Shown one piece after another: positions 10,693-28,418 of a stretch of DNA of 64,000 bases. Within the stretch, counting starts at the first letter, position 1; each line of letters starts with the position of its first letter. The position numbers were made by a program, and so were the translations under genes. Source of the stretch: Deferribacterales bacterium Deferri_01 (GTDB taxonomy: Bacteria > Chrysiogenota > Deferribacteres > Deferribacterales > Geovibrionaceae); contig LUZY01000009.1 in the NCBI GenBank assembly GCA_001603805.1, forward strand, positions 124,001 to 188,000, in the 5' to 3' direction. Below the pieces are notes generated by a model. The model searched no databases and was not told the origin of the DNA. It saw only the letters and a list, made by a program, of their open reading frames with translations.

Positions 10693-11649
10693 CTATTTAT
10701 CCGACCTGTATTTAATTCCTTTCTCATACATTTCCTTCCAGACCCTTAACCCGTCTACTTCCACCAGATCTTTTTCTTCTGAAATACGTTCATTAATAAG
10801 TGAGAGCGCCTTCTCAAACTGGTCATTTTCGGCATATGCAGCAGCAAGCCGCACTGCGTTTTCATTGTCAGGATTGAGGGTATAGGCTTTGCGTCCGTAA
10901 ACTACCGCTTTTGCTCCGTCTCTGTAGTATGGATCAGGGTTAACGGCAAGAATCCACGCCGCCTGAGAAAACGCCTTTCCCATGTTATGATCAAGCACCA
11001 TGGCAGTTTCCAGATCTTTTATTCCGTCACCTGTTTTTGACACAGCAAAGAGTATCTGCGCACGGAGGTAGTAGCTTTCTGCGTTTTTGGGATTTATCTG
11101 TATCGCCTGAGTGACATCCACAACAGCCTGCTCCGGGCTTCCGGTTTTAAGGTACGCCTTTGCCCTGCCGAGGTAGGCATCCCTGTTGTTTTTGTCTGCA
11201 TCTATTGCTTTGTTAAGGTAGAAAAACGCCTGCTTGCTGTCACCGGTTTCCATATACGCAAGCCCGATTAGTGTTCCCGCATGGGCAAAGCTTTTTGGTT
11301 TTTCAGTGAGCGCCTCATCCAATTCCATGATTGCATCCTGATATTTGCCCCGGATAAAGAGAATTTCGCCTCTTTTGTAATGCAGGTAAGCGGTGTTCCT
11401 GTTTCTGCTGAGGGCACGGGAATATTCATAAAATGCTTTATCATATTCCTTCATACCAAAATAAGTATCGCCGAGGAGTGTTCTGTTCTCTCCTGAATCG
11501 TGTTTTTCAACTGCTTTTTCAAAATATTCTGCCGCTAAGGTCAGGTTTCCTGACTCAAGGGCGTTTTGTCCGTTTTTTTGTAATTCCACCGCCGCTTTCG
11601 GCGCACATGCCGCCACAGCGAAGGCAAGGATTAATACTGCCGGTTTCAT
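10693..11649 (-). CDS. TPR-repeat lipoprotein
   Basis: This is a 318-residue protein with a short hydrophobic leader and a lipobox (A-V-A-A-C, Cys15), so it is probably anchored in the envelope facing the periplasm. From about residue 24 it is a series of tetratricopeptide repeats, with typical A-x-x-Y-x-x-A and G-x-x-Y-x-x-A-x-x-x spacing (for example G-K-Y-Q-D-A and G-S-P-E-Q-A). TPR arrays mediate protein-protein contacts, so it is likely a scaffold; the partner is not evident. It is divergent from the phage-type cluster. A weak hairpin at 10675-10690 follows its stop. Confidence 0.85.
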   Translation of the reverse strand: MKPAVLILAFAVAACAPKAAVELQKNGQNALESGNLTLAAEYFEKAVEKHDSGENRTLLGDTYFGMKEYDKAFYEYSRALSRNRNTAYLHYKRGEILFIRGKYQDAIMELDEALTEKPKSFAHAGTLIGLAYMETGDSKQAFFYLNKAIDADKNNRDAYLGRAKAYLKTGSPEQAVVDVTQAIQINPKNAESYYLRAQILFAVSKTGDGIKDLETAMVLDHNMGKAFSQAAWILAVNPDPYYRDGAKAVVYGRKAYTLNPDNENAVRLAAAYAENDQFEKALSLINERISEEKDLVEVDGLRVWKEMYEKGIKYRSDK

Positions 11650-11811
11650 AATATCTCCATGTTCAGCTTCATTAGTAATATTACCCCGCGTTCACAAAAA
11701 TGAGAAGTTTTTTAAAATAACTAAAACAATATTTTTTTGTAATCATTACACGCTATAACAAGAATTGTTTGTTATTTGTTTATATTCCTTCATCGGCTAA
11801 GGAGGAATGAA
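11650..11811. promoter_or_regulatory. Divergent control region of the TPR gene and the virion-gene cluster
   Basis: This 162-bp AT-rich gap contains a perfect 11-bp palindrome, GTAATCATTAC, at 11739-11749. Just beyond it is a possible -10 hexamer TATAAC (11754-11759) reading towards the phage-type genes. A convincing -35 is not visible, so the cluster may need an activator; the palindrome is a candidate binding site. AAGGAGG (11799-11805) gives a strong ribosome binding site for the protease gene. No attachment-site-like repeat of a tRNA end is seen. Confidence 0.4.
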
Positions 11812-12495
11812 ATGATTCTTGAGATGGCTAAAACAGGCAGATACGGCGAGGTGGCGCTCACTGAGGCGGATCTGGAGCAAATGGAAAAAAGTTTCGGTGG
11901 AAAAGTGCCGGTAACTGTGGGGCACGAAATATCCGGAAATATGCCTGCCGCCGGCTGGGTAAAGAATGTCTGGGCTGAAAACGGCGTGCTGATGGGTGAG
12001 GCGGAGCTGGGGGAGTGGCTTAAAAATGCTTATGAAAAAGGTGATTTCCGCAGCTGGTCAATCGGGGCTAAAAGGGACGCAGACGGAGGGCTGTACCTTC
12101 ATCACCTCGCTTTTCTCGGTGCTATGCCCCCGAAAATAAAGGGGCTTGAAGTGATAGAGATGGGCGACTGCGGCGATGTTATCACATTCAAAGGAACTGC
12201 ACCGGCTTATTTCACAGAGCTTGAGATACTCCGGAGGGAGAAGAGGGAAAAAAGGCTGAATGAGCTTAAGGAAGCCTGCGAGGGAAGAATACCTGCATCC
12301 AAACTTGAGCTTGTGATGGAGTTTGCAGAAAACCTCGAAGGTACATTCAATTTTGCTGACGGACATGAGGCGGATGCGCTTGGGATTCTGAAGGATGTTT
12401 TTTCATCACTGCCTCATCCTGTGAAGGCGGGGAAAATGAATCTGCCCGAAGTGCTTGGTGCGCCTGAAACAAAGGGAATATTCGGAAAAATTTAA
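11812..12495 (+). CDS. Prohead protease, phage Mu I-protein-like
   Basis: This is a 227-residue protein, with the start at 11812 fixed by AAGGAGG eight bases upstream. Residues about 30-110 resemble the Mu I / prohead protease family: V-P-V-T-V-G-H-E, then P-A-A-G-W-V, then an S-W-S-I-G-A-K segment and H-H-L-A-F-L-G. In that family the conserved His and Ser take part in cleavage of head proteins during capsid maturation. The C-terminal half is helical and charged (R-R-E-K-R-E-K-R), which suits a fused scaffold. It is the first gene of the cluster; terminase and portal genes, normally upstream, are missing. The assignment rests on motif appearance and position before decoration and capsid genes. 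Confidence 0.75.
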   Translation: MILEMAKTGRYGEVALTEADLEQMEKSFGGKVPVTVGHEISGNMPAAGWVKNVWAENGVLMGEAELGEWLKNAYEKGDFRSWSIGAKRDADGGLYLHHLAFLGAMPPKIKGLEVIEMGDCGDVITFKGTAPAYFTELEILRREKREKRLNELKEACEGRIPASKLELVMEFAENLEGTFNFADGHEADALGILKDVFSSLPHPVKAGKMNLPEVLGAPETKGIFGKI

Positions 12496-12509
12496 GGGGG
12501 AATGAGAAA

Positions 12510-12872
12510 ATGGCAAAGTTTGACGGAGTAATCGACAGGCGTGAAATCGGATCAGAAGGGGTGATAGACGGACGCCACCCTGCTGTGGTGAAGGTTATGC
12601 CTTTTAAGCAGGACAACGGGAAAATTGCTGCAGGCGAGATAATCGCTCTCGGTGCGGACGGCAAGGCGGACTTTTACGACAGTGCAGATGCAGGAACTCT
12701 GGCAGTGCCGGTGGGTGTGACAATTCTTCCTGTGGATACCGGAAAAGACAGCCTCGGCAGTGTGCTTGTTCACGGAACAGTTATAAGAAGCGCTCTCAAG
12801 AATGAGGGGATCAAGGCGGATGCCGCTGCTGTGAAAGCGCTTGAGACAAATACTAATATATGGATGTTTTAA
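12510..12872 (+). CDS. Phage head decoration protein (lambda D-like)
   Basis: This is a 120-residue protein, a typical size for decoration proteins that bind the outside of the expanded capsid and stabilise it. It is rich in Gly, Ala, Val and Asp, with the layout common to the family: an N-terminal arm (residues 1-30), A-A-G-E-I-I-A-L-G-A-D-G-K, and V-L-V-H-G-T-V near residue 87, which resembles the conserved strand of head decoration domains. It lies between the protease and capsid genes, 14 and 13 bp away, exactly where a decoration or stabilisation gene is expected. GGGGGAATG precedes the start. Confidence 0.78.
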   Translation: MAKFDGVIDRREIGSEGVIDGRHPAVVKVMPFKQDNGKIAAGEIIALGADGKADFYDSADAGTLAVPVGVTILPVDTGKDSLGSVLVHGTVIRSALKNEGIKADAAAVKALETNTNIWMF

Positions 12873-12885
12873 GGAGGTCTGAAAC

Positions 12886-13872
12886 ATGCTTCAGTTTGAC
12901 ATAAACAGCTTTTTTTCAAGAGATTCACTGATCAGAACATTAACAGATATGCCGGAGCTTGCATCTCCAGTGCTTGACTCCGTTTACAGAACGGAGAAAA
13001 GAAGAAACCATCCGCTGCCCACTGTGGCTGTGAGCGATCTTCAGCAGCCAATTACAAATATAGCGGTGAGCAGAAGAGGTTCGGCTCCAACGCCTCTTTA
13101 TGGCGACAGCGGGCAGATAACTCACATTGAACCCCAGCCGTTCAGACCTTCCGAAAGGCTCAACGGCGTTGAGGTGAATAATTTCAAGCTTCTGGACAGA
13201 ACAGGAGTTCAGCTTCTCATAAACAATAAAATAGACAGACTCCGCAGAGTTGTGCGTGCTTCCACAGAAGCTCTTGCCGCACAGAGCCTCACAGGAAAAA
13301 TCAGCTACCCCATGATGATGGACGGCGGCTACGGGGTTTATGAGGTGGATTTCGGTTCCACTCTCAGCTATTCGCCTTCTGTTCTCTGGGATGATTCTCA
13401 GGTTGCCATAGATGACATCCTTGAGACTCTCATAGAAATGGAAGCGGATATTCAGGAAACCAGCAGATACGGTGACGGAGTAAGGTTCTGGGCAGGCAAG
13501 AAAGCATTCATGGCGCTCTCCAGACTTGTTCAGGCATTTGAAGGCAGAAGTGTTATCGCCTCGATGGATGAAAAATCAATACTTATCGGCGGCTATAAAA
13601 TCGAGCTGATGAACTCCGCATACATAGACCCTGCAACGGGAAGCCCCATAAAGGTTGTTGATGATACAAAGCTTCTCGCAGTGGCTATGGATGCTCCGTT
13701 TGAGCTGATATATGCAGTGCTGGACGATCTGGACAGCAATCTCGTGTCGATGCCTTTCTTTGTTAAACCTGTTGAGGATAAGCGTACATCATCCATCGAA
13801 CTTGTGGCGGAGAGCAAGCCTCTCCCCGTGCCATACACCAGAGCTGTGAACTGGGCTACCGTTACGGGCTGA
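12886..13872 (+). CDS. Phage major capsid protein (gpE-type)
   Basis: This 328-residue protein fits the lambda E-type capsid family in length and layout. Early segments P-V-L-D-S-V-Y-R-T and R-N-H-P-L-P-T-V suit the N-terminal arm. A central region (I-L-E-T-L-I-E-M-E-A-D-I-Q) and I-D-P-A-T-G-S-P-I-K near residue 250 follow, with a C-terminal F-F-V-K-P-V-E-D-K segment. It would form the icosahedral shell. AAGGAGG (12872-12878) is just before the ATG. The gene is intact, without frameshift, so an assembled shell is possible if a portal and packaging proteins are provided elsewhere. Confidence 0.85.
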   Translation: MLQFDINSFFSRDSLIRTLTDMPELASPVLDSVYRTEKRRNHPLPTVAVSDLQQPITNIAVSRRGSAPTPLYGDSGQITHIEPQPFRPSERLNGVEVNNFKLLDRTGVQLLINNKIDRLRRVVRASTEALAAQSLTGKISYPMMMDGGYGVYEVDFGSTLSYSPSVLWDDSQVAIDDILETLIEMEADIQETSRYGDGVRFWAGKKAFMALSRLVQAFEGRSVIASMDEKSILIGGYKIELMNSAYIDPATGSPIKVVDDTKLLAVAMDAPFELIYAVLDDLDSNLVSMPFFVKPVEDKRTSSIELVAESKPLPVPYTRAVNWATVTG

Positions 13873-13876
13873 TGTC

Positions 13877-14221
13877 ATGGAAATAACAGTTGATGAACTC
13901 AGACAGCATATTCAGCCGGAAGACTATGACGCACTGACAGGCGGTGACGACAGCATAGCAGAAACCTTTGTGGAAAACGGCAGAGACAGAGTGAAGGCAG
14001 TGCTTGAAAACTACGGAGTTGAGTTTGATGAATCCGATTCAGTGATTCGTCTTGCAGTTATCAAGGCGGCGCTGGGGGAGCTTTATTCTTATTCCGCCGA
14101 CTGGGTTACTGCCGAGCATTACCGTGATGAGGCGTCCTCGGTTTTGAAGCCGCTGGCTCCTGCGGTATATCCGGAATCAGTATCTTCTTCAGGGGCAGAC
14201 AACTGGAAAGGCTTTAACTGA
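13877..14221 (+). CDS. Phage head-tail connector protein (gp36-like, DUF1320 type)
   Basis: This 114-residue protein begins M-E-I-T-V-D-E-L-R-Q-H-I and has the pattern of the Mu gp36-like family: acidic, helical, with A-L-G-E-L-Y-S-Y in the middle and a tail W-K-G-F near the end. These proteins sit between capsid and tail. It starts four bases after the capsid stop and lies two genes after decoration, matching Mu order (T, 35, 36, 37). Identification is by length, position and general motif, not by a catalytic residue. Confidence 0.65.
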   Translation: MEITVDELRQHIQPEDYDALTGGDDSIAETFVENGRDRVKAVLENYGVEFDESDSVIRLAVIKAALGELYSYSADWVTAEHYRDEASSVLKPLAPAVYPESVSSSGADNWKGFN

Positions 14222-14248
14222 TAAATATTAAAGGAAGGTTGAGGAACT

Positions 14249-14629
14249 ATGGTTTATGAAACGGCACTCATAATAGCCGGACTGTTAGAGACTTCGGGTC
14301 AATTCAGGCAGGTGTTTGTACATGGCGGAACGCCTGAAAAGGCGGCGGGGGAGATCCTTAAGGAACCGGGAGCCGCAGTGATTTACACGGGGGAGGAGGG
14401 CGGTCCGGCAGGCAGTGCTTTCAGACGTGAGCTGACTTTCACCATAGTTCTGAAAACCGTTACGCTGGGAAGAGGGGAACGTGCCCTTAAGGCTTCGGGT
14501 GATGCTCTGGACGGAGTGTTTGAAGCGCTTAAGGGGCTTCCCCTCTCCTTCTGGCGTGTTGCGGATTTTTCATCCGGCAGGCGTGAAAGCCTGTTCAGGA
14601 TAGATTTCAGCTTCAGGCTGAAGGGATAG
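14249..14629 (+). CDS. Phage tail-terminator or minor tail protein (gp37-like)
   Basis: This is a 126-residue mixed alpha/beta protein. Its pattern resembles tail-terminator or gp37/DUF1834-type proteins: an opening helix E-T-A-L-I-I-A-G-L-L, a strand R-R-E-L-T-F-T-I-V-L-K-T, a helix with A-L-K-A-S-G-D-A-L-D-G-V-F and a final strand R-I-D-F-S-F-R-L-K-G. Such proteins cap the tail tube and join it to the head. Its place directly after the gp36-like gene supports this. The ribosome binding site AAAGGAAGG is clear. Confidence 0.58.
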   Translation: MVYETALIIAGLLETSGQFRQVFVHGGTPEKAAGEILKEPGAAVIYTGEEGGPAGSAFRRELTFTIVLKTVTLGRGERALKASGDALDGVFEALKGLPLSFWRVADFSSGRRESLFRIDFSFRLKG

Positions 14630-14633
14630 GGAT

Positions 14634-15290
14634 ATGGCTATTACTCTGAAAAATACCAACTTCGCTGTGAGTACCTTAGCATATGATCTGGACCAGAGGT
14701 GGCAGCCTTCGCATCTCATCGTGACTGACTATACGAACTTTGAATTACAGGGGAAATTCCGTGCGGTGATCTGGAACGGAGCGGCGCAGTCTCCTCTGGA
14801 CGATCCGGAAAGGGAGATAGTGGAGCTTGAGCCCTTTGGTTATGACGGGTTTGAAGGAAACTATAACTGCTATGGCGGTATGGAAGGCACAGAGGTAAAA
14901 GACTGGGCGGCCGGCAGCAAGATCGCCCATGTGGTAACGGCTGGCAAGCTGGACGAGCTTGAGGCGGAAATTAATCTCAAGGCTGATTCTGCATCTGCTG
15001 AGAAGAAGGGAAACGTGGTTAAAAGAAGCTCTAACTACTCTATGACCGGGGCTGAGAGAGCTGTATTGGTTAACGCCGGTGTGTCTAATGTGAAAATTAC
15101 TCTTCCTGCGCCTGCATCCTTTACCGGAAGGGTGTTTGTGGTCAAACGCATTGACGGCGGCAGTGCAGAGGTGCGTATTTCGCCCAAAGCCGGAGAGCTT
15201 ATAGACACCCAGAGTGCGGATATCCTTCTTTCGTCACAGTGGGAGAAGGTTCAGCTTATTTCAGACGGAACAGACTGGCATACGGTGTGA
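14634..15290 (+). CDS. Putative tail or fibre-like structural protein
   Basis: This is a 218-residue protein of two parts. Residues 1-110 have many aromatic residues and a conserved-looking W-N-G-A-A segment. After a short Ala/Lys/Glu-rich helix (L-D-E-L-E-A-E-I-N-L-K-A-D), residues about 140-218 are beta-rich and resemble C-terminal domains of phage tail fibres that use strings such as V-K-R-I-D-G-G-S-A and W-E-K-V-Q-L-I-S-D-G-T-D-W. Such domains often follow a coiled coil. The position suggests tail tube or distal tail. No confident family assignment is possible. Confidence 0.5.
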   Translation: MAITLKNTNFAVSTLAYDLDQRWQPSHLIVTDYTNFELQGKFRAVIWNGAAQSPLDDPEREIVELEPFGYDGFEGNYNCYGGMEGTEVKDWAAGSKIAHVVTAGKLDELEAEINLKADSASAEKKGNVVKRSSNYSMTGAERAVLVNAGVSNVKITLPAPASFTGRVFVVKRIDGGSAEVRISPKAGELIDTQSADILLSSQWEKVQLISDGTDWHTV

Positions 15291-15297
15291 GGGGAAG

Positions 15298-15672
15298 ATG
15301 ATTACTCTTAACGGAATAACTCTGGATGGAATGATATGGATAAATGAATTCTCCGCAGATTCGCCGGCAGTTGCCGCAGTGCCTTGTGCAGACGGAACTT
15401 CGGTGCTGTTCAGCCAGAAAACTGATGTAATCGACATTGACCTCGAGTCACCGGAGGACGCAGGCTGGCTGAGTCTTGACGAGGCTCTGAGACTCCGTGA
15501 GGCGGCTTCAAACACTGAAGGGGTGTACGTATTCTCATACAGAGGCAAGGAGTACAGGGTGCGCTTCCGCCATGAAGATCCGCCTGCGCTCAAACTTACT
15601 CCGGTGAGTCCGTCCAGCGGATACGGACAGACAGGCAGCTTCTACGGAAGAATAAGACTGAAAACAGTTTAA
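15298..15672 (+). CDS. Small phage-type structural protein
   Basis: This is a 124-residue protein; the ATG at 15298 follows GGGGAAG and comes after the stop of the previous gene, so the longer upstream reading in this frame is not used. It is beta-rich with an acidic middle (D-I-D-L-E-S-P-E-D-A-G-W-L-S). Phrases such as V-F-S-Y-R-G-K-E-Y-R-V-R-F-R-H-E look like a baseplate or tail-associated domain. It is followed 10 bp later by the next structural gene. No family is recognised. Confidence 0.5.
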   Translation: MITLNGITLDGMIWINEFSADSPAVAAVPCADGTSVLFSQKTDVIDIDLESPEDAGWLSLDEALRLREAASNTEGVYVFSYRGKEYRVRFRHEDPPALKLTPVSPSSGYGQTGSFYGRIRLKTV

Positions 15673-15682
15673 GGGGATAAAC

Positions 15683-16648
15683 ATGCAGAGTGAAGACATT
15701 AAATTCTACCGCTCAAAAATTGTCACCGATACGGCGGAAAACGGCGGTCATATTGATATATCAAGGGAAATAGTGAGCGGGGTTAAGTTTAATCTGTTTC
15801 CAAGAGTTACTTCATTTGAAAGAACAAACGGCAAAACCCGCTTCCGTAAGGCGTATATGGCTAACAGAGCGGCGGTGGCAGAGCCTGCTTTTGATGCCTC
15901 TGTGGCGCTCACTGTGCCAAGCACGGGGGGAGACCGTTTTTACATTAAGGCGGCTTCAAGCCATGAAGAGACGGAAGCCAGTCTCTCCACGGATGGATGG
16001 ACAGGCGGCGGGAGGCTCTATGCTGATATCACGGCGGGGGATACATCGGTTCAGGTGCTTTTTGAGAACGATGACTATGCGGTTCCCGCAGGCGCTCTTT
16101 TAATGATCAAAGCGGACTCCGGCGCTATGTTTACAGCAAGGACCGCAGGAGAACCTCAGTGGACGGGAAATGTTGCGCTGATAGGACTCGCCTCGCAGTC
16201 TCCGGATAATTTTGCAGCATCAGAGACATATGCAGGAGTATGTGTTGAACTGGGAAACCTTGAGGCAAAGGCAGATAATGTCACCATTACCTCTTCTGCG
16301 GGAACTTTTGTTACTGACGGCGGAATAATTGCCCTTAACGGAAGCACACCGGAAGATGACTGGACGCTGACATTTATTTCATCATCAGCATTTACAGTTG
16401 CCGGAGCGCAGGCAGGAACACTGCCTTCCGGCACTATATCCGCAGACTACAACCCCATGAACACTGCGGCAGGCGGCTATTATTTCAGCATAGGCAGCAT
16501 AAACTGGGGAGGAACATGGCAGACCGGAGACAGACTGAGCTTCAGCACCGTGTCCTCTGCGAAAGGTTTCTGGCTGAAAGAGGTTATACCTGCGGGAACA
16601 GAAAGAGAGGCGGACAATTTTATCCGTCTTGACTGGATAACGGATTAA
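15683..16648 (+). CDS. Unknown phage-type structural protein
   Basis: This is a 321-residue protein without signal peptide or membrane helix, rich in Gly, Ala, Ser and Thr with regular beta-strand patterns. Segments such as D-R-F-Y-I-K-A, D-T-S-V-Q-V-L-F-E-N-D-D-Y-A-V-P-A-G-A-L-L-M-I and F-T-V-A-G look like repeated beta-sandwich units. The N-terminus carries E-D-I-K-F-Y-R-S-K. Position between small tail genes and the large hub-like protein suggests tail or baseplate. No family is recognised, and a tape-measure protein is excluded because it lacks long helices. Confidence 0.5.
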   Translation: MQSEDIKFYRSKIVTDTAENGGHIDISREIVSGVKFNLFPRVTSFERTNGKTRFRKAYMANRAAVAEPAFDASVALTVPSTGGDRFYIKAASSHEETEASLSTDGWTGGGRLYADITAGDTSVQVLFENDDYAVPAGALLMIKADSGAMFTARTAGEPQWTGNVALIGLASQSPDNFAASETYAGVCVELGNLEAKADNVTITSSAGTFVTDGGIIALNGSTPEDDWTLTFISSSAFTVAGAQAGTLPSGTISADYNPMNTAAGGYYFSIGSINWGGTWQTGDRLSFSTVSSAKGFWLKEVIPAGTEREADNFIRLDWITD

Positions 16649-16651
16649 ACC

Positions 16652-18334
16652 ATGTACAGGGTAGCGGGAGCATTCGCTCCGGGAACGGACGGTTTTGCAC
16701 CCGAAGGGGAAGGTTTTTCTCTGCACGGCTGGGTTGCTCTGCATAATCTGATGGGCTGCGGAGCTGAGATTATTACCCCCGCTGTTTTACAGACAGAGGG
16801 CAGCAACAGGGTGCATTGTTCTGCCGGGTTTGAAGATTACCACTTAATATCAGCTCAGTACGGCGCGAATCTGAAAGGACAGTTCATCTTTTGCGGCGCA
16901 ATTACTGACATTGCAGAAGGAAAGCTGAATATCCCTTTTGCTGTTTCTGCTGATTCTTCTCTGAAAGCAGGTCTCAGCATATCAGGCGGCTCTTCGGGGG
17001 CTGTTTGCTCCCTTAATGCCCTAAGCGAGGCAAAAAGGGAAGGCGGCCTGAATGTCAGAGGAGAAATAGCCTTAAATCCTCTTTGCGGCTCATTGTTACT
17101 TAAATCAGCAGTTGGGGAGAATAAGCCACTGACGGAGTGTTCGTTCAGGTTTCTCCTTAACGGCAGGGATCTTACGGATAAAATCGCAGGTGTTGATATC
17201 AGTTTTTACGGTAAAGACACTTTTGCTTCATTTTCCGCCGTTATCGCCGCTCCCACCGTAAAAGGGGACAGAGCTGAATTTACTGTTGAAGGTATTTCTT
17301 ATCTTTTTGTGATCGAAAAAATAAAAAGAGACGGAAAAACCACAGAAATCAGCGGACGGACAGCGCAGATACTCAATGAACCGCCGTACAGCGGATATAA
17401 GGAAGTTTTTGAAACTAACTCCTCCGCTGCTGCTTTGGCAGGGGATGCACTTTGGAATCTGCCTGATTTTAATGTGCCTCTCGTGCGTAGAAATTATTCT
17501 GAAACTGAGCTTTTGAGTGAGCTTGCAGAGGAGTGCGGCGGGGAAGTCAGGGTGTGTGCCGATGGTTTTGTGCGTGCAGTGGACATCTACTCGCCGGAGA
17601 GCTGCGTTGTTTTAAAGAATTATTTTGAAGCGGAACGTATTTCAGAGCCGGCAGAGGCAAGCGGAGTTTGTGTTGTTTGGGGTTCTTCGGCAGAGCCTGT
17701 TATTGAGCATGAGAAAAAAGCAGGTGCGGGAAGCTTTGCAGACGCTTTCGTTTATTCTGATTCAGAGATCAAGGTCAGCTCTGACGCTGATTTAGTGAGA
17801 GATCTGGGCAGAAGTGTTGCGGAAATAGAAGAAAAAGTTCTGTTCAAGGATGGTGAGGGCAGAACCTCATATCCGGTCTTCAGGCTGAAGGGCGGAGCAG
17901 ATGCGGCAAAAGGCAGAAATGTTTATAAACGCACAAACGGCAGTCTCTCAGAAGCAGTGAGATACGAAACACTTAAGCATAGTTTCCAGCTTTACTGTGA
18001 AGCAGAGAAGGATGCTGTTTTAACCGCCTGCACAGTGAAGAACTTACACCGTGCAGGTTCGGGCGGTTTATTGAAAGAACTTGAACAGAAATATACCGCT
18101 GATGCATGGGTGGCAGCACTCAGGGCTGAAAACACATACCGCAGTCTCGGCGGGGGCACTTATCTGGAGATCACCCATCTTTTTGACCCGGTGATTGCTT
18201 CGGGTGGTGCGTTATTTCTCCGCACTCCGGCAGGGGACGGCTGCTGTGTATCGTCTTCTGTAAATATAAGTGTTTACCCGCTGAAAATCATACAGAAGAC
18301 CAGACTTCATATCAGGGAGAAATTAAATGGCTGA
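16652..18334 (+). CDS. Large baseplate/tail-hub-like protein
   Basis: This 560-residue protein is the largest of the cluster. Residues about 160-270 (L-N-G-R-D-L-T-D-K-I-A-G-V-D-I-S onward) resemble the start of tail-hub proteins: a ligand-binding-like beta domain followed by I-S-G-R-T-A-Q-I-L-N-E-P-P, where late-control and gp27-like proteins carry a G-R-x-x-x-x-L phrase. The first about 150 residues look like an added beta-rich domain. The C-terminus has V-Y-P-L-K-I-I-Q-K-T-R-L. It overlaps the next gene by 8 bp. The hub assignment is an inference from layout and size. Confidence 0.5.
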   Translation: MYRVAGAFAPGTDGFAPEGEGFSLHGWVALHNLMGCGAEIITPAVLQTEGSNRVHCSAGFEDYHLISAQYGANLKGQFIFCGAITDIAEGKLNIPFAVSADSSLKAGLSISGGSSGAVCSLNALSEAKREGGLNVRGEIALNPLCGSLLLKSAVGENKPLTECSFRFLLNGRDLTDKIAGVDISFYGKDTFASFSAVIAAPTVKGDRAEFTVEGISYLFVIEKIKRDGKTTEISGRTAQILNEPPYSGYKEVFETNSSAAALAGDALWNLPDFNVPLVRRNYSETELLSELAEECGGEVRVCADGFVRAVDIYSPESCVVLKNYFEAERISEPAEASGVCVVWGSSAEPVIEHEKKAGAGSFADAFVYSDSEIKVSSDADLVRDLGRSVAEIEEKVLFKDGEGRTSYPVFRLKGGADAAKGRNVYKRTNGSLSEAVRYETLKHSFQLYCEAEKDAVLTACTVKNLHRAGSGGLLKELEQKYTADAWVAALRAENTYRSLGGGTYLEITHLFDPVIASGGALFLRTPAGDGCCVSSSVNISVYPLKIIQKTRLHIREKLNG

Positions 18335-18830
18335 AGTTACTGTGAGTTTTGTCACCCCCTCGGCAGGGAGTGAAAAGGCAGTTATAGAACTGGATGAGGA
18401 GATGAATCTTGATTTATCCGGCAGTGCGAAAAAGGTTTTCCGTTATGGTGAAACAGCCTATTTCAGGGTTTATTCCCCTGTTCCGGCATCCGTCAGAGCG
18501 GTATCTTCTGACGGAACTGTAACAGAGCAGGGGATCGGAACAGCGACAATTAAAGGGGAATATATTCCGTTTACTGACTCTGCCGAAGGAAACACTAAAT
18601 ATCCCGCAAGAGAGATTGTTTCTTCTCAGTGGCTGGGCAAGTCGCTGGGAGAAATGAAAAAAAACAGTGCATACTCCGTTTCATGCGGTGTTCAGCCGGA
18701 TGCGGCAGGAGAAAGCGGAGTAGGTCTGCTGGAGCTTTCCTATACTGCGGGCTTCAAACGCTTCGGCATAACTCTGCCTAAAAAGAATAAGGCTGAGTAC
18801 CCGGTGCTGATTTACGTATTTCAGGAGTGA
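18327..18830 (+). CDS. Tail-associated protein, paralogue of the next gene
   Basis: This is a 167-residue beta-rich protein. The pattern G-E-T-A-Y-F-R-V-Y-S at about residue 41, I-P-F-T-D-S-A-E-G-N-T-K-Y-P-A near 79 and L-L-E-L-S-Y-T-A near 135 recur in the same order in the N-terminal half of the protein at 18834-19550, so the two are paralogues. It overlaps the preceding hub-like gene by 8 bp and is four bases before its paralogue. Probably a component of the tail tip or fibre base; no family is recognised. Confidence 0.5.
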   Translation: MAEVTVSFVTPSAGSEKAVIELDEEMNLDLSGSAKKVFRYGETAYFRVYSPVPASVRAVSSDGTVTEQGIGTATIKGEYIPFTDSAEGNTKYPAREIVSSQWLGKSLGEMKKNSAYSVSCGVQPDAAGESGVGLLELSYTAGFKRFGITLPKKNKAEYPVLIYVFQE

Positions 18831-18833
18831 TTT

Positions 18834-19550
18834 ATGGCGTCTTTTGAAATCAGTTTCGTCAAGGTCAGGGATGAAGGGACGCTTATGCTCACTGAAGACT
18901 ACGAAAGGGGCGGAAACAAAAGCATCCACACCGCAGGCGAAAAGGCATATGTGAGAATATATCCCTCCGGTTCGGGAGCTGCGGTCACTGCCTCCGGCGG
19001 CACATGGAAATATTCTGCAAGGGGATTGAAGGAAAGAATCACAGAACACATAGCTTTTGCGGATGAGCCTTCAGGGAAACTGAAATATCCGGTGGCTGAG
19101 GTTATAAGCGTTTCCCCGGCTTTCGGCGGAACTGTTCCCTATGTCGGCGGGCGCTATGTAAGGTTCAAGGAAAGCAGACTTGGCAGTGTATCTGTTACAT
19201 ATGAAACATCGTATGACGTGATCGAGGTCACGGGGCTGTCAACAGGACACGTAATCATAAAGGCTGACGGACCGGCGGGAACCGCCTACTGCAAAGTGGA
19301 CTACACAGGCGATGAAACGGATCTTTCGGAAAGGATGGTAATCATTACCACGAGAGATGCTGCGTCAAGGGAGGCCGTTCCCTATGCGCAGGTGTTTATG
19401 AACGGCACTTTCAGAGGCGTTACCAACAGCAGCGGGATGCTTAATCTGGGCAGGCTGAAAAAAGGCATGTACAGCCTTCTGGTGCGTAAAGAAGGCTACC
19501 TTGATACCGACATGGATAATCTCAGAAACGATAGTTTCAGGATAGAGTGA
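18834..19550 (+). CDS. Tail-associated protein with carboxypeptidase-regulatory-like domain
   Basis: This 238-residue protein has an N-terminal part (1-150) that matches the previous gene's product in outline (G-E-K-A-Y-V-R-I-Y-P, I-A-F-A-D-E-P-S-G-K-L-K-Y-P). A C-terminal domain (about 165-238) reads V-P-Y-A-Q-V-F-M-N-G-T, then G-V-T-N-S-S-G-M-L-N-L-G, then K-G-M-Y-S-L-L-V-R-K-E-G-Y. This is the pattern of PEGA or carboxypeptidase-regulatory-like beta domains, which act as small binding or spacer domains on surface proteins. The next gene starts within the stop codon (ATGA overlap). Confidence 0.55.
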   Translation: MASFEISFVKVRDEGTLMLTEDYERGGNKSIHTAGEKAYVRIYPSGSGAAVTASGGTWKYSARGLKERITEHIAFADEPSGKLKYPVAEVISVSPAFGGTVPYVGGRYVRFKESRLGSVSVTYETSYDVIEVTGLSTGHVIIKADGPAGTAYCKVDYTGDETDLSERMVIITTRDAASREAVPYAQVFMNGTFRGVTNSSGMLNLGRLKKGMYSLLVRKEGYLDTDMDNLRNDSFRIE

Positions 19551-20419
19551 TGGAGCTTAATGTTTATTTGAGTGCGGATAACTGGCAGCCTGCGGGGCTA
19601 TGCACAGTAAGAGGGCGCAGCAAGGGTGCTGAGTTTTCAGAAGAGGAAGGGATATTGAGTGCCGTGTTCCGCTCTCTGGATGTTTATCTTGATGCGGACG
19701 GCAGCGCTCATGCTGATTCCATGACGGTTCTTCTTTCAGACGGAACAGAGAGCGAAGAATTTCTCCTTCATAATCCTCCATGTTCCAAATCTCCGGTTCG
19801 TAAAGGCTCTTTGACCTATTCCGCAGAGGATGGGGAGGTTGTTTTCAGCTTTCCCAGACTTGGTTTCAGCGGAATGGAGAAATATGTAGTACGTCTCAGT
19901 GAAAGCTCTGTCAGTTATCTTGTTCCCGCAAAAACAGGTGAGATCTCACGGACAGTTCCGGAATACACAGGGTTAAGCCCTGAAACCTTTGTATTGAGGT
20001 TTAGTGATACCGGAGTCGTCCCTGGTGAAACTGTTTCTGTAGGTTTTATGGTACAGGGCGGAAGAGAGTTTATGTACAGATCGTCGGTTTTTGAAACATC
20101 TGTCTGGACATCGGCAGTTATCAAAGGCTGCGGATTGTATAAAGACGGTGTTTTTTATGAAGGCGGTGCAGGAGCGGAGTTTGAGGCAGCAAGATTCGCC
20201 CATGAGGATTTCCGTTGGGCTGTGGAGTTCAGAGGCGAACCATATGCGGTTAAGCCTTCGGATTTTACTGTTTTCTACATAGGTGAAAGGGCTGCTGTTG
20301 TGAAAAAAGGATTAGGCGGCAATGCTTCCACAACTGGGAAAGCTTCTTCTGCTTCAGTCCGTGACACGCTGGAAGACGATGATCTTCTTGTTCCTTTCAG
20401 CTTTTACGGAGGAGTCTGA
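19550..20419 (+). CDS. Unknown tail-type protein
   Basis: This is a 289-residue beta-rich protein. The ATG at 19550 overlaps the TGA of the preceding gene; a GTG one codon earlier is also possible. It contains repeated strands with hydrophobic alternation (Y-V-V-R-L-S, V-L-R-F-S-D-T-G, V-S-V-G-F-M-V-Q-G-G) and a C-terminal low-complexity region of Ser, Gly and Ala (G-N-A-S-T-T-G-K-A-S-S-A-S). No catalytic motif or family is recognised. Its stop overlaps the start of the next gene by one base. Confidence 0.5.
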   Translation: MELNVYLSADNWQPAGLCTVRGRSKGAEFSEEEGILSAVFRSLDVYLDADGSAHADSMTVLLSDGTESEEFLLHNPPCSKSPVRKGSLTYSAEDGEVVFSFPRLGFSGMEKYVVRLSESSVSYLVPAKTGEISRTVPEYTGLSPETFVLRFSDTGVVPGETVSVGFMVQGGREFMYRSSVFETSVWTSAVIKGCGLYKDGVFYEGGAGAEFEAARFAHEDFRWAVEFRGEPYAVKPSDFTVFYIGERAAVVKKGLGGNASTTGKASSASVRDTLEDDDLLVPFSFYGGV

Positions 20420-21429
20420 TGGAAAGGTTTGCTCTGACGAATATAGGCGAAACTGTTTCGGAAACAGAATTCAGAAAAGGAATTATTATCTCTCTGAATG
20501 AGGAAACAGACAAGGCGGAGGTTGAGTCCGGCGGTGAGCTTTATTCCTTTGTGCCTCTTTTTTATAAATGCAGCGGAGAGGAGACAGCTGCACCGGACGG
20601 TTCTGTCAAAGGAGCGGCAGGCGCATTCTCGGCAGGTGATGAGGTGATTCTGTGTTTTGTGCGCGGAAATCCGCTTGTTATAGGGTTTCCCGGCGGAGCT
20701 AAACCATGCTTCACCCACAGAGTCGGTTACAGAGCTGATGACGGGTGGTTTATAGCTCCCGAAGGAGAAATTATCCCCGATGAATTTATCAGCTCAGAGG
20801 ATTTTGGAAAGCGTTACCAGATAGCAGAACCCTTGGCGGATAACGGAGGCTATGCGCTCACAACGGAAACTGAAATCGTTGATGAATGCCTTAGTCATAC
20901 CAAACATTTATTTAGTCTGGACGGTAACATTCTGGCGGAAACAGCCAGTTATACTGATGCCTGTAAAGTTGATGAATGGGGGCAGTGGTTCAGTCTGTAC
21001 AGACAGGCGCTTTATGCCGGGTTCAGCCTTTGTTTTTATGAATACACGGATGTTTTTATAATAGACGGAAGAACTTGGACCGTTGACCGTTCATACAGGC
21101 TGGGAACAGGGACGGAATTTGACGAAGCTTCGGCATTTCATGAGCATTGGGAAATATATCCCCGATACAGCGGCGAAAGGATGCGTTCAATTAACCCTTT
21201 CTACGGAGGAAGAAACAGCGAGGGTGAGTTTGTTCTGGGTTCATGCGTAACCGGAACAAATGAGGAGGACACAGAGTTTATAGTCTATCTATATGGAAAA
21301 AGCGGGTTGCTTAAACATGTTTTTCCATGCACCGGCGGGCGGGTTGATTTGGGTATGGGTGAGGCTGCTGCCGTTGGAGTTATTGTTAAGGTCAGAAAGG
21401 GGGGAGAAAATGGTGTGGAAGAATCTTAA
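20419..21429 (+). CDS. Putative baseplate spike-like protein
   Basis: This is a 336-residue protein. Residues about 18-95 have the outline of an OB-fold of baseplate spike proteins (gpV/gp5 type): K-G-I-I-I-S-L-N, then K-A-E-V-E-S-G, A-G-D-E-V-I-L-C-F-V-R-G-N-P-L-V-I-G-F-P-G. The phrase pairing a well-defined value of the chamber (V-P-L) with G-D-x-V-x-x-x-F-x-x-G-x-P is common in those domains. The remainder, residues 100-336, is unique and rich in aromatic residues and may be the target-binding part. The endolysin gene starts inside its 3' end. The spike reading is an inference. Confidence 0.5.
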   Translation: MERFALTNIGETVSETEFRKGIIISLNEETDKAEVESGGELYSFVPLFYKCSGEETAAPDGSVKGAAGAFSAGDEVILCFVRGNPLVIGFPGGAKPCFTHRVGYRADDGWFIAPEGEIIPDEFISSEDFGKRYQIAEPLADNGGYALTTETEIVDECLSHTKHLFSLDGNILAETASYTDACKVDEWGQWFSLYRQALYAGFSLCFYEYTDVFIIDGRTWTVDRSYRLGTGTEFDEASAFHEHWEIYPRYSGERMRSINPFYGGRNSEGEFVLGSCVTGTNEEDTEFIVYLYGKSGLLKHVFPCTGGRVDLGMGEAAAVGVIVKVRKGGENGVEES

Positions 21430-21838
21430 ACATTTTTCTGAAAATGAGAACTGGGGGGACGCAGGCAGGATGAATCCCGCACTGCTTCTGCTTTTGGACA
21501 ATCTCAGGGAAAAAATCGGCAAGCCTTTTGTGATTCATTGCGGTTATGAAAACGATGGGCATGCCTCCGGTAGCAGGCACTACAGGGGCGATGCGGTCGA
21601 TTTTCACATAGAAGACATGAACTTTGCCGAATCAGCAGACAGGCTGCTTAAGGCTCTGCATGAAACAGAACTGTGCGGTCAGGTGAGTGCCGCCTATGTG
21701 GGGCTAGGCATTTATCCTGACTGGAATACTCCGGGCTTTCATCTGGATATAAGAGGGTATTCCGCCCGTTGGGGAAGAATAGGCGGAGAGTATGTGAGTT
21801 TTGAAAAAGCATATAAACATGCGGGAGGGGGGAGATGA
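21410..21838 (+). CDS. Peptidase M15 family endolysin
   Basis: This 142-residue zinc peptidase would cut peptidoglycan stem peptides. The ATG at 21410 is chosen because AAAGGGGGGAG is six bases upstream; an in-frame start at 21293 would lie inside the spike-like gene. Zinc-site residues are visible: S-R-H-Y-R-G-D-A-V-D-F-H carries the H-x-x-x-D-type pair of the M15 S-x-H-x-x-G-x-A-x-D pattern, and G-F-H-L-D-I-R supplies the third ligand. The size is that of single-domain phage lysins. It overlaps the neighbour on each side (20 bp and 4 bp), so it is part of the cluster. Confidence 0.85.
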   Translation: MVWKNLKHFSENENWGDAGRMNPALLLLLDNLREKIGKPFVIHCGYENDGHASGSRHYRGDAVDFHIEDMNFAESADRLLKALHETELCGQVSAAYVGLGIYPDWNTPGFHLDIRGYSARWGRIGGEYVSFEKAYKHAGGGR

Positions 21839-22053
21839 TAACTTTGCTGGTAAAGATGTTTTCAGGGGCTATGCTGGGCGTTGCCAAGGCATTTCTGACA
21901 GAAAGGATAATAACAATAGTCGTTTTGGGTGTAATGCGGGAGCTTGCCGCATCCACAAAGACAACAATTGATGACCGTATAGTTAATGAAGTCGCTGAAT
22001 CTCTCGGTATGGTTGATTTTGGTGAAATGAAGAAGAAAATTGTAAGCGAATAA
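21835..22053 (+). CDS. Small membrane protein, possible holin partner
   Basis: This 72-residue protein overlaps the endolysin gene by 4 bp. It has two hydrophobic stretches close together (residues 3-20 and 25-36, I-I-T-I-V-V-L-G-V-M) and a charged C-terminus rich in Lys and Asp/Glu. Size and place next to the lysin suggest holin or a membrane anchor for lysis, but no family is recognised. It is the last gene before the cluster terminator. Confidence 0.55.
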   Translation: MITLLVKMFSGAMLGVAKAFLTERIITIVVLGVMRELAASTKTTIDDRIVNEVAESLGMVDFGEMKKKIVSE

Positions 22054-22059
22054 GTGTAG

Positions 22060-22092
22060 AAGGCTTCAGAGCTGCTCTCTGGAGCCTTTTTT
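22060..22092 (+). terminator. Terminator of the phage-type cluster
   Basis: AAGGCTTCAGAG (22060-22071) pairs with CTCTGGAGCCTT (22077-22088) with one G-U pair and a five-base loop, followed by TTTTTT. It marks the right boundary of the virion gene block. Confidence 0.92.
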
Positions 22093-28326: not shown

Positions 28327-28333
28327 CTCGTAG

Positions 28334-28418
28334 TGCCGGGGGGGGGACTCGAACCCCCACAGGATATGCTCCCACAGGATCCTTAGTCCTGCGTGTCTAC
28401 CAATTCCACCACCTCGGC
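28334..28418 (-). tRNA. tRNA-Leu, anticodon AAG
   Basis: This 85-nt gene folds as a class II tRNA with a long variable arm. The acceptor 5' strand is GCCGAGG. The anticodon stem is CAGGA/TCCTG with loop C-T-A-A-G-G-A, giving anticodon AAG and G at position 37 as usual for leucine. The T arm is GGGGG-TTCGAGT-CCCCC, and the 3' strand CCCCGGC plus A73 follow; CCA is not encoded. One A-C mismatch lies in the acceptor stem, as in E. coli tRNA-Leu. The run of nine Gs on the plus strand fits the fold exactly. An A at position 34 would need to become inosine and is uncommon for leucine in bacteria, where GAG is usual. A good promoter and terminator flank it. Confidence 0.92.

Follow-up and report, generated by a model that had tools for sequence, protein, structure and literature searches.

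Gene content of the locus

The window, the whole stretch of 64,000 nucleotides that was analysed (G000:C9:124001-188000, from the 2.85 Mb genome G000), harbours at positions 11812-22053 fifteen tightly packed and intact open reading frames (ORFs) on the same strand, annotated by ORF calling and searches with Pfam and PHROGs. One promoter and one terminator bracket the fifteen genes, g1 to g15. Counts of genomes refer to the twelve members of the family or to the eleven relatives of G000. The features of the locus are:

10693-11649, minus strand: TPR gene, divergent neighbour of the block in 12/12 genomes; a landmark, not a part of the particle
11749-11788, plus strand: promoter element, CACRnnRTAACAA-N19-TATATTYC; a second copy lies upstream of the packaging operon (G000:C9:105811-105850)
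11812-12495, plus strand: g1, head maturation protease (phrog_976, E=7.6e-22; 12/12 genomes)
12510-12872, plus strand: g2, lambda-D-like head decoration protein (PF02924, E=5e-4; phrog_49, E=2e-8; 12/12)
12886-13872, plus strand: g3, major capsid protein of the gpE family (PF03864, E=7e-46; single copy per genome, 12/12)
13877-14221, plus strand: g4, probable head-tail connector, by position and size (12/12 genomes, 41-82% identity)
14249-14629, plus strand: g5, probable tail-completion or connector protein, by its position, conserved after g4
14634-15290, plus strand: g6, tail protein with weak tail-fibre similarity (phrog_6427, E=1e-5; phrog_8469, tail fibre, E=0.014; 10/11 relatives)
15292-15672, plus strand: g7, tail protein (phrog_4408, E=7e-14)
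15683-16648, plus strand: g8, conserved tail protein without assigned function (phrog_6128, E=5e-27; 12/12 genomes)
16652-18334, plus strand: g9, baseplate or tail hub, by predicted fold of residues about 163-560
18327-18830, plus strand: g10, tail-tip protein, paralogue of g11 (phrog_24905, E=5e-5; 12/12; tblastn cross-matches with g11)
18834-19550, plus strand: g11, tail-tip protein with a carboxypeptidase-regulatory-like end (PF13715, E=2e-4; 12/12 genomes)
19547-20419, plus strand: g12, tail-tip protein, no family matched (12/12 genomes)
20419-21429, plus strand: g13, tail-tip protein, no family matched (7/11 relatives by blastp, plus positional counterpart)
21410-21838, plus strand: g14, M15 peptidase endolysin (PF08291, E=6e-5; phrog_894, E=2e-9)
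21835-22053, plus strand: g15, holin-like small membrane protein (phrog_402, E=2e-8)
22058-22090, plus strand: intrinsic terminator, 14-bp stem followed by a U run (-20 kcal/mol, z=-3.4)

In agreement with the preliminary description of this DNA, the cluster starts with a prohead protease, possesses intact frames, and ends with a lysin pair (g14 and g15) and a strong terminator. The untranslated leader is short, because the promoter lies at 11749-11788. Genes for integrase, phage repressor, terminase, and portal were not seen among the listed ORFs of the window, which comprise those of at least 180 aa to the right of 22 kb, at least 130 aa to the left of 9.5 kb, and at least 60 aa between 9 and 25 kb.

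The search of database families gave no match for g4, whose position corresponds to that of connector-like genes in viral relatives. Homologues of g5 were detected by blastp in five of the eleven relatives, and positional counterparts were seen elsewhere. In phage L073 the counterpart of g7 sits after the tape measure and is followed by a homologue of g8. For g8, the fold search gave no match with E below 0.001, and a scan of viral sequences returned no relative. The predicted fold of g9 matches phage hubs, including Mu gp44 (E to 1.3e-12). The endolysin g14 was found only in the genus of the window and in genome G023. Alignments of five genes compared with PDB sequences gave nothing useful.

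The downstream flank of the block is variable, with a cytochrome gene in G000 and a fibre-like gene plus a small gene in G021 and G022. In two congeners the holin is followed by a fibre-like gene that contains repeated segments and whose N-terminal anchor is conserved (L020:1416-2594 and L021:732-1901, both on the minus strand). Its N-terminus of about 50 residues is common to genes at the same place in most relatives, while their other ends differ. This fibre gene was not found in the window of G000, which carries the terminator and the cytochrome gene at that place. The window also contains a tRNA-Leu with anticodon AAG, predicted with ARAGORN at 28333-28418 on the minus strand; such a tRNA is unusual for a bacterium.

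Packaging genes at a second locus

The packaging genes reported as missing in the preliminary description are indeed not seen in the window, but the search it proposed in the rest of the genome located them. Outside the window, on the contig and strand of the head operon and 27 kb upstream of it, lies an operon of terS, terL, and portal (G000:C9:105883-108802, with terL at C9:106436). The three genes form an operon away from the head block in 12/12 family genomes, so that the suggestion of a particle devoid of packaging functions is not supported. The TerL family PF03237 has exactly one match in each of the twelve genomes, never within the head block. Both Terminase_6 domains are present in TerL, and its ATPase and nuclease motifs are conserved; the portal belongs to Portal_Mu (E=2e-89).

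On reading its sequence, the N-terminus of TerS is helix-turn-helix-like, and the protein has weak matches to phage small terminases (E 0.002-0.006). The small terminases of known gene transfer agents (GTAs) have no detectable DNA-binding domain (PMC11841831). Because of its helix-turn-helix-like N-terminus, TerS probably does not share this GTA trait.

Housekeeping genes, including ffh, trmD, rimM, and lon, lie between the two modules in G000, and the modules are also apart in the single-contig genomes G018 and G022. Viral relatives keep their genes for portal, protease, and capsid within a few kilobases, and several of them have terL and the decoration gene there as well; the separation is therefore a derived state. 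As it occurs in all four genera, it is probably older than the genera.

Lambda-type packaging genes (GpA_ATPase, Phage_portal_2) were considered as part of this system and rejected, as they occur in only three relatives and away from these loci. They were taken to belong to separate, ordinary-looking prophages with lambda-type terminase, portal, and tape measure (G021:C7:13662-32747, G023:C1:1151462-1168032, and G025:C3:185650-204179).

Conservation, descent and selection

A search for the capsid in 51 genomes of the phylum revealed one gene in each of the twelve members of the family, which belongs to the Deferribacterota and includes Denitrovibrio and Seleniivibrio. Identity in the relatives is 62-96%, and no capsid gene was found in other families of the order. 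A distant copy is present in G001, where it belongs to a region resembling an ordinary prophage, in which terminase, portal, head, and tail genes adjoin each other. In every genome of the family (12/12, four genera), the same TPR gene is the divergent neighbour of the block. Of the site between the TPR and cytochrome genes, which the preliminary description proposed to compare, the TPR side is conserved and the downstream flank varies.

Among the three congeners, all genes with an estimable dS show dN/dS of 0.02-0.24, and their synonymous sites are close to saturated. The values for capsid, portal, and TerL (0.02-0.05; 0.02-0.03 for the capsid) are similar to that of the neighbouring radical-SAM gene (0.04). 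The tip genes g9 and g13 evolve fast, with 53-59% identity between congeners. Trees of the head genes, of terL plus portal, and of Lon have the same topology (9/9 splits), and the pairwise identities of the three sets are correlated (r=0.97-0.99), therefore indicating vertical inheritance and not repeated infection. The head and packaging genes are vertically inherited and under purifying selection.

Two interruptions were observed. In G018, g11 is split by a 1.5-kb transposase-bearing insertion with 17-bp inverted ends (L028:13981-15506). In G019, a metagenome-assembled genome (MAG), terL (L056) contains a single in-frame stop in an otherwise intact frame; this may be a real loss or a MAG sequencing error.

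The block might be the remnant of a decaying prophage, as the missing tube, tape measure, and integrase, the insertion in g11, and the stop in terL would suggest. This reading is very improbable: the genes are kept in all twelve genomes of four genera, with low dN/dS at saturated synonymous sites, their topology is that of the host gene, and the promoter is kept before separate operons. The preliminary description had regarded absence from all relatives, with integrase and terminase remnants just outside, or an assembly artefact with the rest of a prophage elsewhere, as evidence against its interpretation. Neither applies, as all relatives possess the block and remnants of an integrase or terminase were not seen next to it.

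Even less probable is an active phage or satellite whose genes only seem to be split by assembly or rearrangement. The ordinary prophages that G021, G023, and G025 carry (GpA terminase and Phage_portal_2) lend it some plausibility. Nevertheless, the fixed TPR neighbour, the topology shared with the host gene, the split in single-contig genomes, and the housekeeping genes between the modules of G000 contradict it. Nor does the block have a close viral relative, the capsid being at most 43% identical to sequences in IMG/VR and without a match in phage records. The best TerL matches (up to 53%) come from other phages than the best matches of portal or capsid, and therefore no single ancestor phage was found.

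Shared promoter, lysis operon and candidate regulator

The same type of promoter element precedes both the head and the packaging operon. In the genus of the window, the element given above has, with up to one mismatch, exactly two genome-wide matches in each of the three congeners, both at the two operons. The corresponding element of Denitrovibrio and Seleniivibrio, TTAAACATAT-N15-NGTAnnAT, has eleven exact matches genome-wide, ten of them before head or packaging operons and one elsewhere, and the reversed control has none. Both patterns derive from the sites at the head and packaging operons; independent evidence comes from the sites at a third locus and from a trained matrix.

The eleventh match precedes a phage-type lysozyme gene at the third locus, and near-matches precede its orthologues in the other two Denitrovibrio genomes. 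All eight genomes of Denitrovibrio and Seleniivibrio possess this lysozyme and lack the g14-g15 pair at the head block. A holin homologue lies alongside in 7/8, and the same or a related promoter is present in 7/8. The small protein encoded after the lysozyme in these relatives is homologous to g15.

A matrix trained only on head-operon promoters was applied to 689 kb of strand sequence. Directly after its training sites it ranks nine promoters of packaging and lysis operons; a single packaging site and the weaker lysis sites of Seleniivibrio fall among the background. In the genus of the window, two out of three packaging sites rank next, and the third follows just behind a head-operon site of G023. 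A crude comparison of the best 36-mer between the upstream regions of the two operons in each genome was not separated from controls in most genomes, a test that is insensitive because only about 14 positions are conserved. Co-regulation of the operons is well supported.

Beside the packaging operon, the genus of the window also possesses an XRE/S24-like gene (G000:C9:110252-111061; L044:18253-19062, minus strand) that is 94-97% conserved. A TAACAA-type element resembling the shared promoter was found before it in all three congeners (L044:19079-19118). This gene is a candidate regulator of the operons.

Tail genes and a possible alternative role

The preliminary description counted tube and tape measure among the lacking genes; neither a tail tube homologue nor a tape measure was found in G000. 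At the sensitivity used, none of the twelve genomes showed a recognisable tape measure in its cluster or nearby, and the PhageMin_Tail profile had no match in G000. Matches of TMP_3 in G000 were weak, scattered, and below the cut-off, and were taken, without individual checks, for unrelated coiled-coil proteins. A tail tube (phrog_807, E=2e-19) was detected only in G023 and has no homologue in the other eleven genomes. Viral relatives carry the tube and a long tape measure where the gap lies in these clusters. Despite the gap, the hub and distal tail genes are kept. The gap reflects either a very short tail or proteins that escape recognition.

With no recognised tape measure, and a tube in G023 only, the tail may be unable to deliver DNA. 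The main rival explanation is a domesticated DNA-filled particle similar to PBSX, which would package host DNA and kill or bind competitors, or serve some other purpose, while delivering no usable DNA; its target would be set by the tip proteins. The absence of tube and tape measure beside intact packaging and lysis genes agrees with it, as does the fast evolution of g9 and g13. On the other hand, the packaging genes show some of the strongest constraint (dN/dS 0.03-0.05), which would be unexpected if only killing mattered, and no immunity gene was noticed in either operon. We consider this reading unlikely, but more probable than decay or an active phage, both of which are contradicted.

Proposed function

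That the particle gene set is domesticated is well supported. The best explanation, and a likely one, is a particle of phage origin, passed on vertically, with the function of a gene transfer agent. This was one of the possibilities raised in the preliminary description, a GTA-like particle with genes at other loci, and it agrees with the packaging operon at a second locus in 12/12 genomes and the lysozyme at a third in eight. A regulator recognising the dedicated promoter would switch on the operons, probably in a minority of cells, so that the head-tail-lysis operon (11812-22053) is co-induced with the terS-terL-portal operon 27 kb away. The protease would mature the capsid during assembly. 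Packaging and delivery of host DNA are deduced from the intact terminase and portal: with no phage genome to pack and host DNA as its sole supply, the terminase would push stretches of the host chromosome through the Mu-type portal. Endolysin and holin would then release the particles, and DNA would be delivered through a tail that keeps its hub, without a recognised tape measure or, in G000, a tail tube. Points that count against the GTA reading are the unrecognised tape measure and, outside G023, tail tube, the insertion in g11 of G018, the terL stop in the MAG G019, the helix-turn-helix-like TerS, the lack of a bias to cheap amino acids, and the absence of the fibre gene from the window.

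An independently evolved GTA lineage of the Deferribacterota, with gpE capsid, Mu-type portal, a minimal tail that functions without tube and tape measure, and a sequence-reading TerS that could direct packaging to chosen chromosomal sites, is a more speculative and rather unlikely reading. Among published reports, no GTA was found for Deferribacterota, nor one in Mucispirillum; mentions of GTAs together with Deferribacter-type names in the full text of open papers were incidental, as judged by titles and counts.

GTAs have so far been proven in few lineages. According to reviews, new ones cannot be identified reliably, since they resemble dead prophages with genes spread over several places (PMC11841831). 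In the present case the dispersed parts are connected by a common promoter, which in two genera pointed from the head genes to a lysis operon at an unlinked site. The conservation of the dispersed particle genes in the family, behind one kind of promoter, suggests a new lineage of particles carrying bacterial DNA between cells. If confirmed, it would add one more phylum with a GTA and a general way to recognise such systems, and Denitrovibrio, Seleniivibrio, and related genera, which have members in culture, might serve as producers.

Comparison with known systems

Several traits of GTAs were found. The caudoviricete-derived structural and packaging genes are intact, apart from the tube and tape measure that were not recognised; they are fixed in the host, vertically inherited, and under purifying selection. 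They are dispersed over two loci in G000 and three in Denitrovibrio and Seleniivibrio, and presumably no particle could hold all of these as one genome. Integration and replication genes of its own were not seen in or beside either operon of G000. An active prophage would have an integrase or transposase, replication and repressor genes, and a contiguous genome; here, packaging and head genes are apart in all twelve genomes, and no integrase was seen beside them in G000.

Phages with a gpE-type capsid and a Mu-type portal, such as L065, L073, and the prophage of G001, possess homologous portal, protease, and capsid genes (28-43% identity), and some also decoration, g7, and g8. Their genes form one contiguous set, accompanied by a tube and a long tape measure, whereas here head and packaging genes are apart in every genome. 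PBSX of Bacillus is a chromosomally fixed phage-like particle that packages host DNA, lyses its producer, and acts as a bacteriocin. The present system is similarly fixed in the chromosome, but PBSX occupies one locus with a repressor and a complete tail.

GTAs of the RcGTA type (Rhodogtaviriformidae) are multi-locus, host-controlled, and vertically inherited, with their own terminase, portal, protease, capsid, hub, and lysis genes (PMC9662315, PMC11841831). The system described here is likewise multi-locus, vertically inherited, and phage-derived, with the same set of own genes. It differs in its gpE-type capsid, Mu-type portal, helix-turn-helix-like N-terminus of TerS, no recognised tape measure, and no reduction of amino-acid cost. 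Alphaproteobacterial GTAs are biased to energetically cheap amino acids in comparison with viral homologues (PMC9662315). This bias was not seen here, with mean costs of 22.76 vs 22.76 (capsid), 23.40 vs 23.66 (portal), and 22.86 vs 22.26 (protease), in a comparison confounded by GC content.

The GTA of Brachyspira hyodysenteriae (VSH-1/BhGTA, Brachygtaviriformidae) has a head, tail, and lysis block of 16.3 kb and a single terL elsewhere, and is vertically inherited across the genus (PMC9662315). Similar to BhGTA, the present system has one head-tail-lysis block of comparable length (10.2 kb), a single terL at a separate locus, and vertical inheritance, a likeness of arrangement. Unlike BhGTA, it belongs to another host phylum, has terL in one operon with terS and portal, and shows a promoter type common to its operons. 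Among known arrangements, that of BhGTA, in which terL stands apart, comes closest.
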